The notes under the pieces: generated by a model
The model's database searches: none
Seen by the model: the letters and a program-made list of their open reading frames with translations, nothing else
What the model was told of the DNA's origin: nothing
Assembly: GCA_903883945.1 (NCBI GenBank)
Contig: CAISCV010000284.1
Coordinates: 1 to 35,191, forward strand
DNA length: 35,191 nucleotides
Direction of reading: 5' to 3'
Source: an uncultured Chitinophagaceae bacterium
Lineage (GTDB): Bacteria; Bacteroidota; Bacteroidia; Chitinophagales; Chitinophagaceae
Shown: piece after piece, positions 6,882-23,470 of the stretch
Layout of the letters: each line of letters opens with the position of its first letter
Position numbering within the stretch: the first letter of the stretch is position 1
Position numbers and translations under genes: made by a program

Positions 6882-7112
6882 AATATATACTTCGGGTGCT
6901 AGAATATACATTCTGGCTTCTGAAGTGTACATTTTAGACTCTGAAGTGTACACTTTGTCTCCAGAAATGTACATTTTAACTCCTAGAATGTGCATTTTAA
7001 CTCCCAGAATGTGCGTTTTACCTCTAAGAATGAACACTTTAACACCCAGGATGTACATTTTGACTCCTGAAATGTACATTCTAGGTGCTGGGATGTACAT
7101 TCTGGGTGTTTG
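6882..7112. repeat. Repeat array 2: eleven 21-bp units built on ATGTACAT
   Basis: Units of exactly 21 bases run without a gap from 6882, with starts at 6882, 6903, 6924 and so on to 7092. A typical unit is AATGTACATTTTAACTCCTAG (6966). The core ATGTACAT is itself a palindrome, so each unit places a symmetric site two helical turns from the next. The outer units share a GGTGCT or GGCTTC variant that the inner units lack. Both strands stay open in one frame and read as MYILTPR-like or MYILGVK-like heptapeptides. Being open on both strands with a symmetric core is better explained by the repeat than by coding. The array follows the REC-AraC gene and precedes the mgtA-like gene's leader. Confidence 0.9.
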
Positions 7113-7563
7113 ATAATATATTTTGATATTGTAAGACCTTGTATTTTATCTTGTGAAGCCACTAGTAGTCCAAATTAATGTAGCAAGAAGCCCTCGTATT
7201 ACGGTTGAAACGTTGAATGTTTAATTTTTTAACCCTTTCAAGCACATCATATTTTAAAGAGGGTAATGAGAAAGAAGAAAAAATCTTTCTTACAAGAAGC
7301 AGTTTGATTTATGTAGAAAAAAGTTGTTGAAAAGTAACTCAATCTATTTTGGTCTAAATTATACTTCCCAATCTAGTTTTACATCAGTAGAATACTATTT
7401 CGTTTAAATAAAAAGCAATTAAAGTGGTCTGTATAATTCTAACTCAATTATTAACTATACAAAACCGGAGGAATGTCTTTTAAGCTATATCATGCAAAAT
7501 ATAAATTCAAGATTCTAATAAAATTCTAAGACCATCCAAGCCATTCCTTAATGCTTGCTATCT
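7113..7563. other. Gene-free AT-rich stretch between array 2 and the mgtA leader
   Basis: No reading frame with family features, no RNA gene and no convincing terminator were seen. Short A/T runs and a weak GAAAGA/TCTTTC hairpin around 7271-7290 are all that stands out. Confidence 0.4.
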
Positions 7564-7571
7564 TACATTTG
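7564..7571 (+). promoter_or_regulatory. -7 promoter element of the mgtA-like gene
   Basis: TACATTTG matches the Bacteroidetes TAnnTTTG element exactly and is followed by CACCG, a context seen at several genes in this window. Transcription should start near 7577, giving a leader of about 255 bases before the ATG at 7834. A small perfect hairpin (GCAACC 7576-7581 with GGTTGC 7588-7593) lies right at the expected 5' end. Confidence 0.55.
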
Positions 7572-7756
7572 CACCGCAACCAAAAGCGGTTGCATATTTC
7601 TCATTTAACACCACAATATGGACAGTATTCCGTCAGATAGTACATACATTATTTAATCCCCTCACTTCTGCATGGATGCCTTTGGTAAATCGCCGCAGTA
7701 GCGAGACAAAAGCAAAGGTTATGTTCAAATTCATTTTCAATAATTACAATTTATTC

Positions 7757-7815
7757 GTTACAGGATGCATCATGCCAGTAACCAGAAACTTGTATCCTGT
7801 AAATTTCTTTTTTTA
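7757..7815 (+). promoter_or_regulatory. Candidate transcription attenuator in the mgtA leader
   Basis: TTACAGGATGCA (7758-7769) pairs with TGTATCCTGTAA (7791-7802) as a 12-bp stem with one G-U pair. It is followed by TTTCTTTTTTT (7804-7814), which is an intrinsic-terminator layout only 19 bases before the start codon. The same left arm can instead form a smaller hairpin, GTTAC (7757-7761) with GTAAC (7778-7782) plus GG (7763-7764) with CC (7775-7776). The two structures exclude each other. That would suit regulation of a Mg2+ importer by premature termination. A known M-box (ykoK) riboswitch was not recognised here. Confidence 0.5.
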
Positions 7816-7833
7816 TCTTCTAAATAATTAATT

Positions 7834-10539
7834 ATGACGCAAACTTTTAAAGAGAAAATTAAAAGCAAATTGCCATTTAACCCTAGTGGTAACAATTGGG
7901 AGGAGATAGCTGCAAGCACTTTGAGGCAAGCGGGCAAAAGTGATACCGATACCTTCTTTGCTATGTGCACTAGTAACCCGGATGGCCTTACTCCAGAGGA
8001 AGTAGAGGAAAAAATTGCTACAATTGGTCTCAATGAGGTACATCATGAGCGGGCTCCTTCATGGGTTAAGCAACTGGTTGAAGCATTTATTAATCCGTTT
8101 ATTGGCGTATTGATAATTATTGCTATTGTATCATTTATTCTAGATGTATGGTTGGCTAAAAAAGGAGAAGAAGACTACAAGACTGTTATTACGGTTGGTA
8201 TCATGGTGATGATCAGTTCTTTGTTGCGGTTCTTTCAGGAGTTTAGAAGTAACCAGGCTGCCGAAAAACTAAAAAGTATGGTGAAGACCACTGCTACAGT
8301 ACTCCGTAAAGAAATTGGCAGAGTGGAAATTGATATTAAAGAATTAGTTCCTGGAGATATTATCATTATTTCTGCGGGAGATATGATTCCTGCTGATTGT
8401 CGGGTGATTCATTCTAAAGATTTATTTATCAGTCAGGCAATGCTTACTGGCGAATCGATGCCTGTTGAGAAAAGAAACCTGCCTATTCGTGACGCCGATG
8501 ATAAATCGCCATTAGAATTGGATAACATCTGTTTCATGGGTACTAATGTTGTGAGTGGTTCTGCTACTTTAATGATTGTAACTACAGGTAATCAGACCTA
8601 TTTTGGCTCTTTAAGTAAATCTATAGTAGGAAAAAGGGCAGAAACAAGTTTCGATAAAGGGGTTAATAAAGTTAGTTATCTGCTCATCTCTTTTATGCTG
8701 GTAATGGTACCATTGGTTTTTGTGTTGAATGGTATTATCAAGCACAATTGGTGGGATGCCCTGCTATTTGCCATTGCTGTTGCGGTTGGTTTGACCCCAG
8801 AAATGCTCCCGATGATTGTTACTGCCAACCTTGCAAAGGGTGCTTTGAATATGAGCAAGCGAAAAGTGATTGTAAAACGCTTAAATGCCATTCAAAACAT
8901 AGGTGCGATGGACATTTTATGTACCGATAAAACAGGTACGCTTACAATGGATAAGATTGTGTTGGAAAGGCATTTGAATATTGATGGCGATGATGACGAT
9001 GAAGTACTAAAATGGGCTTACCTGAACAGTTATCACCAGACAGGGTTGAAGAACATATTGGATCTGGCCATTCTTGAACACGTTGAGCTGAATGACTACC
9101 TGAAAGTAGAGGAACACTTCTTGAAAGTGGATGAAATACCCTTCGATTTTCAGCGCCGCCGTATGAGTGTAATCCTAAAACAACGCAATGGAAAGCATTT
9201 GTTGATTTGTAAGGGGGCTGTAGAGGAGATGCTGAACCTCTGTACTCATGCTTTCGACCCCGGTGAGGATAGGCAATTGCACATTGAGAATGATGTGATT
9301 ATTCCCATAGATGAAAAAGTAAGACAAACGGTACTAGATACTTCCAAAAGACTAAATAAAGAAGGGCTAAGGGTACTTTTGGTGGCTATTAAGGAGTTTG
9401 ACGACAGGGCATTGAACTATGCAGTAGAGGATGAAAAGGATATGGTATTAACGGGTTTCATTGGTTTCCTGGATCCTGCAAAACCTTCTGCTAAAGCATC
9501 TATTGAGTCTTTGCAAAAGCTTGGAGTAACGATGAAAGTACTCACTGGCGACAATGAAATCATCACTAAAAAGATTTGTCGCGAAGTAGGTATCCCAGTT
9601 AACAAGATTTTGATGGGGGCGGAGATAGAAAGAATGTCCGATGATGAATTGAAGGCACAAATTGATGAAGTATCCATTTTAGCAAAGCTTAGCCCGATAC
9701 AAAAATCGAGGATTGTAAAGCTATTACAGGAGATGGGGCATACCGTTGGCTTTATGGGTGATGGCATTAATGATGCAGCAGCTTTAAGGGACGCCGATGT
9801 GGGGATAAGCGTAGATACGGCTGTGGATATTGCCAAAGAAAGTGCAGATATCATCCTGCTCGAAAAGGATTTGATGGTACTTCGTAAGGGAGTAATTTAC
9901 GGACGCAGAACTTTTGGTAACATCATCAAGTATATCAAGATGACAGCCAGCAGCAACTTCGGCAATATGTTCAGTATGTTGGGAGCAAGTGTATTGTTAC
10001 CGTTTCTTCCGATGCTTCCGATACAGATATTGGTACAAAATCTATTGTACGACGTCTCTCAAACCTCCATTCCTTGGGATATGATGGACGCAGAGTTCCT
10101 GGAGAAACCCAAAAAATGGGATGCATCGGGCATATCTAGGTTTATGCTTTACATAGGGCCAATAAGTTCTATTTTCGATTATATAACTTTTGCCGTTATG
10201 TTCTTTTTCTTCAAGGCAAATGATGTGGCACATCAAAATCTGTTTCAAAGCGGTTGGTTTATAGAAGGGTTGTTGTCTCAAACACTAATCGTGCACATGA
10301 TACGTACCAGAAAAATACCATTTATTCAAAGTTGGGCTACTGCACCTGTGGTAGCGCTTACTTCGTTTATTATGTTTTTGGGTATTATCATTCCTTTTAC
10401 CCCATTTGGTTATGCCTTAAAATTAGTCCCGTTACCACTTAGTTATTTCCCTTGGTTAATTGGAATATTATTAAGCTATTGTGTGCTGACACAGTTAATA
10501 AAGAACTGGTTTGTACGTAAATTCCAGGAATGGTTGTAA
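7834..10539 (+). CDS. mgtA: Magnesium-translocating P-type ATPase (MgtA/MgtB type)
   Basis: A 901-residue P3B-type ATPase, about the same length as enterobacterial MgtA, that would import Mg2+ across the inner membrane using ATP. An N-terminal cytoplasmic region leads into membrane segments around residues 85-133. The actuator motif is TGES (205-208). The ion-path helix carries VGLTPEMLPMIV (318-329), which is the MgtA hallmark. The phosphorylation site is Asp365 in DKTGTLT, and the hinge MGDGINDAAALRDADVGIS lies near residue 640. The C-terminal membrane block includes NLLYDVSQ, another MgtA feature. It is preceded by a long leader with a possible attenuator and followed after 98 bases by an outer-membrane porin on the same strand. 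All catalytic motifs are intact. Confidence 0.93.
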   Translation: MTQTFKEKIKSKLPFNPSGNNWEEIAASTLRQAGKSDTDTFFAMCTSNPDGLTPEEVEEKIATIGLNEVHHERAPSWVKQLVEAFINPFIGVLIIIAIVSFILDVWLAKKGEEDYKTVITVGIMVMISSLLRFFQEFRSNQAAEKLKSMVKTTATVLRKEIGRVEIDIKELVPGDIIIISAGDMIPADCRVIHSKDLFISQAMLTGESMPVEKRNLPIRDADDKSPLELDNICFMGTNVVSGSATLMIVTTGNQTYFGSLSKSIVGKRAETSFDKGVNKVSYLLISFMLVMVPLVFVLNGIIKHNWWDALLFAIAVAVGLTPEMLPMIVTANLAKGALNMSKRKVIVKRLNAIQNIGAMDILCTDKTGTLTMDKIVLERHLNIDGDDDDEVLKWAYLNSYHQTGLKNILDLAILEHVELNDYLKVEEHFLKVDEIPFDFQRRRMSVILKQRNGKHLLICKGAVEEMLNLCTHAFDPGEDRQLHIENDVIIPIDEKVRQTVLDTSKRLNKEGLRVLLVAIKEFDDRALNYAVEDEKDMVLTGFIGFLDPAKPSAKASIESLQKLGVTMKVLTGDNEIITKKICREVGIPVNKILMGAEIERMSDDELKAQIDEVSILAKLSPIQKSRIVKLLQEMGHTVGFMGDGINDAAALRDADVGISVDTAVDIAKESADIILLEKDLMVLRKGVIYGRRTFGNIIKYIKMTASSNFGNMFSMLGASVLLPFLPMLPIQILVQNLLYDVSQTSIPWDMMDAEFLEKPKKWDASGISRFMLYIGPISSIFDYITFAVMFFFFKANDVAHQNLFQSGWFIEGLLSQTLIVHMIRTRKIPFIQSWATAPVVALTSFIMFLGIIIPFTPFGYALKLVPLPLSYFPWLIGILLSYCVLTQLIKNWFVRKFQEWL

Positions 10540-10637: not shown

Positions 10638-11984
10638 ATGAATAAGTTTCTATACATATTATTCTTTTTTTCCTGCTGGTTGCCTGCCATCAAGGCGCAA
10701 ACAAAAGTTGATACTTCAAAAAATGAGACTTCCAATCACTTTCAAGTCACCGTTATCTCCCAAAGTCATGCTGGCTTTCCCGTTTCGTATGCAGGAAGAA
10801 ACAGTTTAGCAGATTCCACAGAGTTAGGTGCTTCCAGTATTACGGCTACCTTGTTTTTTGGTAAGAAATTATGGAAGAATGCTGCTTTTTATTTTAATCC
10901 TGAGGTGGCAGGGGGGGCAGGACTCAGTTATTCGGTAGGGGTTGCAGGCGCACTGAACGGAGAAACGTATCGTATTGGTGATCCCGAACCTAAAACGTCT
11001 GTTGCCCGTGCCTTTTTTCAACAAAACATTCCCTTGCGAAATACAACGTATGAGGAAGTGGAGGATGACGTGAACCAAGTAAAAGATTCTCGCCCCACCA
11101 GCCGCATAACCATCTCTGTGGGTAAGTTTGCCATCAGCGATTTCTACGATAAAAACGATTATAGCCACGATCCCCGCAATCAGTTTTTTAATTGGTCGCT
11201 CATGTCCAATGGGGCTTGGGATTATCCCGCCAATACCAAAGGATATACGTTTGGTTTTGTGGTTGAATGGATAAAACCTACATGGGCTATCCGATTTTCT
11301 AGTGTTGCAGTACCCAGAATGGCCAATCAATCTGCGATGGAGTATAGTTTGGCGCATGTTCATTCCGAAAGTATAGAATTAGAGAAGAGTTGGGCAATCC
11401 ATCAACACGCAGGTACGGCAAGATTTCTCTTTACCAATACTTGTTCGCGCGCTCCGGCTTACAAAGAAGGGATAAAAGCGGTTGCCAATAACGATAGTCA
11501 TCTATTAAATGTTTTTACGGGCACAGAAGAAGGCAAAACTTTTACAGGAACTAAGTTTGGATTGGGTTTTAGTGGCAATCAGGAGCTTACGAATGAGATA
11601 GGTTTGTTTACTCGTGCCGGATGGAATGATGGTAAACACGCATCGTGGGCATTTACCGAAATAGACCAGACTGTTAGTGCCGGATTATCGGTAAAAGGAA
11701 CTAAATGGAATCGTAAAGATGATGTTTGTGGCATTGCAGGGGTAATAAATGGAATCTCCAAAGACCATCGTGCCTTTTTAGCGGCTGGTGGCAATGGTTT
11801 TATCATGGGAGATGGGGCATTAAACTATGGAACAGAGAAAATTATAGAAACTTATTACAATATAAAGCTTACAAAGACCTTAAACCTCACTTTCGATTAC
11901 CAGTTAGTCTCCAATCCGGGCTTTAATAAAGACAGAAAGGGCCCTGTACATGTACTTGGGGTTAGGGGACACGTTGCGTTTTAG
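10638..11984 (+). CDS. OprB-like carbohydrate porin (outer-membrane beta-barrel)
   Basis: A 448-residue outer-membrane protein. Residues 1-21 are a signal peptide ending AIKAQ. The rest is rich in alternating short strands with aromatic residues and ends in GVRGHVAF, with the terminal Phe typical of outer-membrane barrels. Features recalling the OprB family are the early YAGRNSL segment, KFAISDFYDKN..HDPRNQFFNWSLM (about 161-190), the SWAFTEIDQTVSAGLS stretch and the end segment that begins DYQLVSNPGFN. OprB proteins passively admit sugars. Its place 98 bases after the Mg2+ ATPase on the same strand suggests co-transcription, perhaps supplying an outer-membrane route, though that link is inference. 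No TonB-box or plug domain is seen. Confidence 0.75.
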   Translation: MNKFLYILFFFSCWLPAIKAQTKVDTSKNETSNHFQVTVISQSHAGFPVSYAGRNSLADSTELGASSITATLFFGKKLWKNAAFYFNPEVAGGAGLSYSVGVAGALNGETYRIGDPEPKTSVARAFFQQNIPLRNTTYEEVEDDVNQVKDSRPTSRITISVGKFAISDFYDKNDYSHDPRNQFFNWSLMSNGAWDYPANTKGYTFGFVVEWIKPTWAIRFSSVAVPRMANQSAMEYSLAHVHSESIELEKSWAIHQHAGTARFLFTNTCSRAPAYKEGIKAVANNDSHLLNVFTGTEEGKTFTGTKFGLGFSGNQELTNEIGLFTRAGWNDGKHASWAFTEIDQTVSAGLSVKGTKWNRKDDVCGIAGVINGISKDHRAFLAAGGNGFIMGDGALNYGTEKIIETYYNIKLTKTLNLTFDYQLVSNPGFNKDRKGPVHVLGVRGHVAF

Positions 11985-23250: not shown

Positions 23251-23470
23251 ACGAGGTATGTTTTCAAATTAAAAAACACACCTCGTATATATCCGATGCC
23301 ACCTTCTTCATTACAAAACACACCTCGTATATATCTGATGCCACTTTCTTCATTAAAAAACATACCTCGTATATATCCGATGCCACTTTCTTCATTACAA
23401 AACATACCTCGTATATATCCGATGCCACTTTCTTCATTACAAAACACACCTCGTATATATACGAGGTATG
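23251..23470. repeat. Repeat array 3: five 42-bp units bounded by inverted half-units
   Basis: CCTCGTATATAT recurs at 23281, 23323, 23365, 23407 and 23449, exactly 42 bases apart. The intervening 30 bases (CCGATGCCACTTTCTTCATT and an A-rich tail) are almost as well conserved. The array is flanked at both ends by ACGAGGTATG (23251-23260 and 23461-23470). The first copy forms a 14-bp hairpin with unit 1 (23251-23264 with 23273-23286, one mismatch). The last fuses with unit 5 into the 20-bp perfect palindrome ACCTCGTATATATACGAGGT (23448-23467). CATACC/GGTATG cores are shared with array 1. Confidence 0.93.

Follow-up and report, generated by a model that had tools for sequence, protein, structure and literature searches.

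A putative leader-peptide-controlled switch upstream of mgtA in Bacteroidota, with a layout resembling MgtL and mgtQ

The window analysed here, a stretch of 35,191 nucleotides from an uncultured Chitinophagaceae bacterium, carries on its forward strand the gene mgtA for a Mg2+-importing P-type ATPase (7834-10539; TIGR01524, 1274.8 bits against a cut-off of 610.75). The question raised by this locus is whether the DNA ahead of the gene controls it, and by what means. Leader peptides and RNAs of Mg2+ genes are known from enterobacteria (MgtL, mgtQ, mgtM/mgtP) and from the bacteria that bear an M-box. In the draft genome of this organism (99.24% estimated completeness) neither CorA nor MgtE was found at E up to 1e-5, nor MgtC at E up to 1e-10; with these three families not found there, MgtA may be a main Mg2+ importer of the genome, and its leader could matter greatly to it. 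The comparison of leaders described below suggests that this one is probably a translation-controlled attenuator built on a leader peptide, of the MgtL or mgtQ kind. That some switch controlled by a leader peptide operates here is a claim that we make with considerable confidence; that its signal would be Mg2+, read through destabilisation of the ribosome as in the enterobacterial systems, is a view toward which we lean slightly.

As regards the surroundings, mgtA is followed by a gene for an OprB-family porin (10638-11984; PF04966, 120.4 bits). Two intergenic arrays of degenerate tandem repeats with a 21-nt period (259-464 and 6907-7080) are both open as short repetitive ORFs, and the second of them sits between a response-regulator gene and the mgtA leader. 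In addition, a 42-nt unit forms a tandem array of 4.7 copies with 94% matches at 23268-23464.

A preliminary description of the locus had predicted, from a consensus -7 element, a leader of about 255 nt. The element TACATTTG is indeed present at 7564-7571 on the forward strand and is of the Bacteroidota type TAnnTTTG; because TACATTTG or TACATTCG is kept in six of the six same-genus leaders of the genus alignment, the predicted length of about 255 nt is reasonable. The predicted transcript start coincides with a 5' hairpin, GCAACC/GGTTGC (7576-7593, forward strand, 6 pairs), whose GCAAC and GTTG parts are kept in the genus alignment. Taken as a whole, the leader (7580-7833) is of ordinary stability (z -0.33; 66 of 200 shuffles as good). 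The same description had proposed that mgtA is regulated by a leader in which hairpins compete. This logic is upheld by the comparison across Bacteroidota, and the stems that it named are replaced by two others, here called A and B. The conserved device lies at 7564-7723, upstream of the terminator described before, and consists of the -7 element, a leader ORF and these two mutually exclusive stems.

Five mgtA genes of the same genus served for the closest comparison (L002-L005 and the partial L008; 87-90% protein identity). Apart from the promoter element, the window and these five loci have in common a block at 7616-7730, whose 115 columns are on average 88% identical; the block is absent from L006, a congener with 83% protein identity. 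It opens with uORF1, a 12-codon leader ORF on the forward strand (7618-7656) that encodes MDSIPSDSTYII and is recognised by translation and by an ORF in the same phase in relatives, and it ends at ATGTTCAA, the start of uORF2. A covariance model of the block, run on 244 genomes of the family, matched 12 of them at E up to 1, three being in the genus. Matches in other genera were L038 (E 1e-6), L039 (3e-6) and L040 (0.02), each upstream of mgtA and on the same strand, and there were six further weak ones (E 0.3-0.9), of which L041 was aligned. All nine leaders of the first comparison contain a short ORF that keeps the same phase; the peptides are MDSIPSDSTYII (window), MDSHPSGSKHNS, MDSHPSDSKLIS (twice), MDSIPSDSKNIR, MDSIPSDSKYII, MDTYPSGNKNY, METHHPVCKQIS and MDTHPPSSKQNYSQACC.

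To see how far this ORF extends, DNA upstream of MgtA was gathered from the family (394 genomes, 136 with a match, the loci of the top-scoring ones being taken) and from named genomes (the best 80 of 585 confirmed stretches). It should be noted that both rules applied to these regions were written after some leaders had already been seen. The first rule demanded ATGGAN, 7-30 codons and the promoter motif, and it was satisfied in 66 of 147 regions in the forward direction against 4 of 147 reversed. The final rule demanded an acidic residue at codon 2 or 4, P or S at codon 5, and the promoter motif TAnnTT[TC]G 18-60 nt before uORF1. The final count leaves aside 11 duplicate loci as well as 4 short regions, and it treats 13 regions from outside the Bacteroidota separately. 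Of the 122 Bacteroidota regions, 64 have upstream of mgtA a uORF1-type ORF, short and acidic early on, as in the window, and 1 of 122 has one on the reverse strand; these regions are not independent, because several come from the same genus. In the other phyla such an ORF was found in none of 13. The sole reversed match, L058, is itself such a leader, facing the other way before a gene for a 64-aa protein. The remaining 58 of the 122 regions fail the rule, among them the same-genus L006; four others (L039, L107, L121 and L130) have a leader by eye and were counted as misses for failing the promoter rule, and some matches may be false or of another type (L119, MEQYSLR; L087, MDYHSCPRQPFT). When no residue was required, 43 of the 82 short ORFs linked to the promoter motif had D or E as their second residue, and on the reverse strand 1 of 40 had it. 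An ORF of the uORF1 type was absent before the other mgtC genes of relatives (0 of 22 loci; L230 starts inside the gene and has no upstream DNA). A pattern scan for further leaders over 395 genomes of the class (136 with a match) was left unused, because the control pattern also matched many genomes and the places listed looked mostly like chance. As a separate observation, L087 and L093, from two genomes of one genus, have upstream of mgtA another type of short ORF (MDYHSCPRQPFT and MDSYHSCPRQHIIQ), which may be a further class of leader peptide.

The peptides vary around M-[DE]-[STA]-[GD]-[PS]. The commonest feature is D or E at codon 2 (57 of the 64 final-rule matches); S, T or A occupies position 3 in 57 of 64, and G or D occupies position 4 in 48 of 64, while codon 5 encodes Pro in 49 and Ser in 15, as the rule itself mostly demands. 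Many of them have a single acidic residue, fewer than MgtL. Ser at residue 3 is written with AGY 13 times and with TCN 17 times, and therefore it is the peptide, rather than the RNA, that is kept. According to the record titles, the peptides come from Mucilaginibacter (MDTGPSRSFQLLTTLR), Pedobacter (MDAGPYFKNTTIHVLTAP, MDSGPSYYKKSNF), Chitinophaga (MDTGPARITRYPI), Sphingobacterium (MDSGPHSKRQEIII), Chryseobacterium (MDTDPSHYIN, MDSDPYSNYQS), Elizabethkingia (MDTDPHYYNN) and Bacteroidales (MNDDPYPSCKK..., MKDDPGHSIVH...), and three more are given here without organism (MDSGPSRNKIIISL, MEADSRLRLFISMV and MKSDSHSRNVHII).

The region that follows uORF1 can fold in two ways. Stem A pairs 7661-7671 with 7695-7705 on the forward strand (9 pairs, -9.0 kcal/mol) and begins 5 nt after the uORF1 stop; stem B pairs 7678-7684 with 7713-7719 (forward strand, 7 pairs, -6.4 kcal/mol) and ends 1 nt before the start codon of uORF2. 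As the two stems cross, they are mutually exclusive, A being the anti-B stem. In a hand alignment of the genus whose gaps were placed so as to favour pairing, 52 of 54 cells of stem A are paired and one pair has a compensatory change, and in stem B 47 of 48 cells over 8 pair columns are paired, again with one compensatory pair. A third stem, P2, was obtained at the level of the genus with RNAalifold on 6 sequences, and it joins uORF1 codons 4-7 (7629-7631 and 7634-7637) to 7667-7670 and 7674-7676 (7629-7676, forward strand). Six of its seven pairs are invariant and the other is A-U in five sequences and G-U in one; because these six never vary, P2 offers almost no covariation for testing.

Beyond the genus, the stems recur in the 57 leaders that were folded, taken from the 64 matches and from similar leaders. 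The set used for spacing, folding and energies comprised 58 leaders hand-picked from the scans, with L166 kept out of the folding for its distance, and the next start was set by hand in about ten of them. With the start chosen automatically, 36-69 nt separate the uORF1 stop from the next start in 50 of the 58. In the recurring layout, stem A leaves from the region of the uORF1 stop and the 3' strand of B lies at the next start, so that the exclusive stems are placed where translation of the ORF could choose between them. In L053, for instance, A is CCGACTG/CAGTTGG and B is TGCAATTTTAAGC/GCTTAAAATTGCA; in L149, A is CATTCAG/CTGAATG and B is ACTTTTCTGT/ACAGAAAAGT; and L109 has a B of 17 bp that ends 2 nt before the start of mgtC. 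The stop-to-start regions fold better than their dinucleotide shuffles (57 leaders, mean z -2.6, 37 below -2), and so do the folds made without the 3' strand of B (49 leaders, mean z -2.16, 22 below -2). The alternative folds conflict with B in 45 of 49, a count made without shuffle control. In 49 of 57 leaders, some with hand-set starts, the best fold pairs over the next start or within 14 nt of it; in the remaining 8, one of which is the window, the region near the start is unpaired in the best fold, and B occurs only as an alternative.

Both stems were also examined by exchanging strands among 37 representatives, hand-chosen and differing in G+C, an effect that the permutation keeps. The observed energy was -13.1 against -7.3 +- 0.41 kcal/mol for B and -13.7 against -8.7 +- 0.45 kcal/mol for A, and in either case none of 5000 permutations was as good. 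The window itself is mid-ranked (B 14th and 10th, A 21st and 34th of 37), with -9.8 for B and -5.1 for A, whose strand was partly cut off. Covariation, which the preliminary description had asked of its own hairpins, is thus seen in A and B instead, in the compensatory pairs of the genus and in this permutation. From genus to genus the sequences of the stems are replaced, yet their pairing is retained.

What lies behind stem B differs among the leaders. In the window it is uORF2, of 36 codons (MFKFIFNNYNLFVTGCIMPVTRNLYPVNFFFYLLNN; 7721-7831, forward strand), which by translation stops 2 nt before mgtA; within the genus, conservation is limited to its MF[KN] start, which makes uORF2 a probable remnant whose present role would be to couple translation to mgtA. 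A small MF-type ORF comes next in the genus of the window and in several others. The next ORF is mgtA itself in L117, L120, L121, L127, L130, L134 and L139 (46-52 nt), and by translation it is mgtC in twelve leaders; the ten of these that were scanned all match PF02308. In other genera it often encodes a 64-68-aa MF protein with a basic tail such as KRRRDQRH or KKRRRIRH (L038, L040, L107, L110, L122), and in Pedobacter and Sphingobacterium loci the first protein has 77-82 aa and is of the type MFNFSKTQTKYT. At E up to 1, Pfam gave no match for three such small proteins and for uORF2 of the window. Small proteins of this kind, which come first behind the leader in several genera, are possible Mg2+-stress small proteins. 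Two side observations concern them. In L122 (reverse strand, upstream of mgtA) and L058, the leader MDTEPPGWNYHY precedes not mgtA but a divergent 64-aa protein, MFSFSFKKSNKQQ...KRRRDQRHRIM. In L038 and L040 a second small ORF of about 65 aa (MRKNISWLNAIIILTIAVYL...) is placed between the MF-type ORF and mgtA; its product is likely a membrane protein, and the L038 copy has only a weak Tetraspanin match (E 0.085).

Apparently, then, we are dealing with a switch run by translation of uORF1 that closes the next start codon. The anatomy comes from the comparison of leaders, and it is from the likeness to MgtL and mgtQ that we infer the sensing of Mg2+. At normal Mg2+ the ribosome would complete uORF1 and, standing at its stop, would cover the 5' strand of stem A; with A blocked, B would form and close the next start, and uORF2 and the closely coupled mgtA would be off, and the untranslated RNA might be terminated prematurely. 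At low Mg2+ the ribosome would pause or fall off on the early acidic codons of uORF1, by intrinsic ribosome destabilisation as for MgtL; with the ribosome lost early, A would form, B could not, and the opened start would allow mgtA to be made. In the genus of the window, P2 inside uORF1 would also close the untranslated RNA, and we therefore propose that the signal for opening is given there by a ribosome at an early position in uORF1.

An energy model in which ribosome-sized gaps were forced into the RNA gives the cost of opening the next start. In the window this cost is 5.8 kcal/mol for the free RNA, 2.4 with a ribosome at uORF1 codon 5 and 7.2 with one at the stop. Of the 57 leaders, 40 have a start that is harder to open with the ribosome at the stop than with the early ribosome, and 11 have one that is easier to open (mean +2.3; Wilcoxon p 6e-5, though related leaders are not independent). 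The contrast between stop-occupied and ribosome-free RNA is weak, the start being harder to open in 30 and easier in 16 (p 0.03). Where the gap is very short, as in L109, L116, L054 and L170, a ribosome that has reached the stop would disrupt B, which is the opposite of the model, and such leaders may work by another balance.

Several other explanations were weighed against this one. The preliminary description had taken the 12-bp stem 7758-7769/7791-7802, with its loop of 21 nt and a T-rich tail that runs to about 7820, for an intrinsic terminator that a smaller overlapping stem prevents in answer to Mg2+. The stem and the tail exist as sequence on the forward strand, inside uORF2, and the region 7740-7833 folds well (z -2.83), beating 199 of 200 shuffles locally, with one that folds as well; moreover, translation of uORF2 would cross the stem, which makes a second stage possible. 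However, it lies outside the block conserved in the genus, it has only four G-C pairs, and a scan of the uORF2-to-mgtA interval for perfect stems of 7-14 bp with a T-rich tail found such a hairpin in the window and another in L008; L002, L003, L004 and L005, four of the five same-genus relatives having the leader, gave none. The hairpin of L008 is another 12-bp stem in the same place, which shares with that of the window its outer six pairs, CAGGAT/ATCCTG. The covariation expected of this stem thus failed to appear, the stem being missing in four relatives and altered in the fifth; besides, in other genera B lies directly at the start of mgtA or mgtC and leaves no room for a terminator. After this check in relatives the terminator was rejected as the core device, in spite of the related hairpin of L008, and we consider transcription attenuation of this form very improbable. 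The switch does not need an intrinsic terminator, which would be at most a lineage-specific second stage; the hairpin inside uORF2 may be a recent one.

The leader peptide could also answer to the supply of an amino acid (proline, serine or aspartate) or to the general rate of translation instead of Mg2+. The Pro or Ser at codon 5, though mostly imposed by the rule, would agree with this, as does the response of Salmonella mgtP and mgtL to proline and EF-P described in passages of PMC3641672 and PMC6460261. Nevertheless, one Pro or Ser codon says little about supply, ribosomes are not known to be stalled by a lone Pro codon according to PMC8092293, the commonest feature of the peptides is the early acidic residue, and the genes regulated are Mg2+ genes, so we regard this signal as unlikely. 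The identity within the genus had also been read as a metal-binding RNA aptamer, that is, a riboswitch at 7616-7730 in direct control of mgtA, with a possible multi-stem fold and a block that the covariance model finds in other genera. This reading was dropped because the conserved blocks begin at the start codons of two ORFs and hold the two stems. Furthermore, distant genera replace the RNA sequence and keep the ORF, the promoter spacing and the two stems, the codons of conserved residues are exchanged synonymously, and Rfam gives no match; an aptamer seems to us highly implausible. Finally, the uORF1 peptide might act after its release, for example on MgtA, the hairpins merely tuning basal translation; the conservation of its N-terminal residues, against a variable remainder, would fit this. 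Short peptides (10-20 residues) whose C-terminal halves vary and whose cis architecture is tight look like cis leader peptides, though, and we give this explanation hardly any credence.

Should the leader-peptide switch respond to Mg2+ as proposed, a large phylum that includes soil, water and gut bacteria would use the ribosome as a gauge of Mg2+, destabilisation by early acidic nascent chains would be a widespread sensing principle, and dozens of natural variants would be at hand for testing which residues and stems matter. In the open-licence literature, no title or abstract among the matches listed concerned an mgtA or mgtC leader peptide in Bacteroidota, and a text search of PMC10219788 for Mg2+ terms gave none; an MgtL-like layout before the Mg2+-pump genes of this phylum, as deduced here from sequence, is apparently undescribed in print.

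With respect to the known systems, the preliminary description had recognised neither the enterobacterial mgtA leader nor the M-box in this DNA, and the searches agree with it. No Rfam family, RF01056 and the M-box included, reaches its threshold in the window, and at E up to 10 the region 7100-7900 yields seven unrelated families, among which are neither the M-box nor Magnesium-II; as a positive control, the E. coli mgtA leader matches RF01056 with 125.8 bits. Neither was RF01056 matched, at gathering, in the six Bacteroidota leader loci scanned. The feature is accordingly filed under leader-peptide control of Mg2+ genes and not under RF01056 or the M-box. The M-box (ykoK) is alike in controlling Mg2+ genes in cis, and in M. 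tuberculosis it appears as a translational platform with a small ORF, according to PMC12810186; it differs in that the window has no match to it at E up to 10 and in that no aptamer sequence is conserved here beyond the genus of the window and its nearest relatives. The mgtM/mgtP leader of Salmonella mgtCBR also has two small ORFs and alternative stems before mgtC, one of which covers the mgtC start, whereas mgtM senses ATP and mgtP proline, and further translation of mgtP favours the ON stem (cited passages of PMC3641672).

A further comparison is with mgtQ, the uORF between Salmonella mgtC and mgtB. As described in PMC8092293, this uORF has Asp2, requires Asp2 and Glu5, and is followed by stems 1:2 and 3:4 as alternatives to 2:3, one stem hiding the start region of the next gene until early loss of the ribosome opens it. 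P2, A and B of the window can be read as 1:2, 2:3 and 3:4 of mgtQ, and unlike mgtQ, which lies within an operon, the Bacteroidota version leads the whole transcript. MgtL of E. coli and Salmonella likewise precedes mgtA as a short ORF whose early codons include acidic ones and Pro; its translation chooses between alternative RNA structures, and its completion keeps mgtA off (PMC11282234 and PMC6460261, in the passages cited); the acidic codons of E. coli MgtL cause ribosome drop-off at low Mg2+ (PMC11282234, same passage). In Bacteroidota, B stands at the start codon, some 36-69 nt past the ORF, whereas mgtL acts on transcription, at a distant Rho-dependent step, and RF01056 has no match to the RNA sequence in the window or in the six loci scanned. 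We are evenly divided on the widest reading, in which many Bacteroidota would gauge cytoplasmic Mg2+ with the ribosome for the synthesis of MgtA and MgtC, drop-off from a leader peptide and exclusive hairpins, the latter retained although their sequence has been almost wholly replaced, opening the next start, be it a separate invention from that of the enterobacteria or an ancient shared one. The core of the peptide in this reading is an early acidic-x-(Gly/acidic)-Pro/Ser, with the rest changing fast. By eye, MEADSRLRLFISMV and MESDSTRLRMYIFLT are MgtL lookalikes among the Bacteroidota peptides, and MEADSRLRLF is the one set beside E. coli MgtL if the device is ancient and shared.
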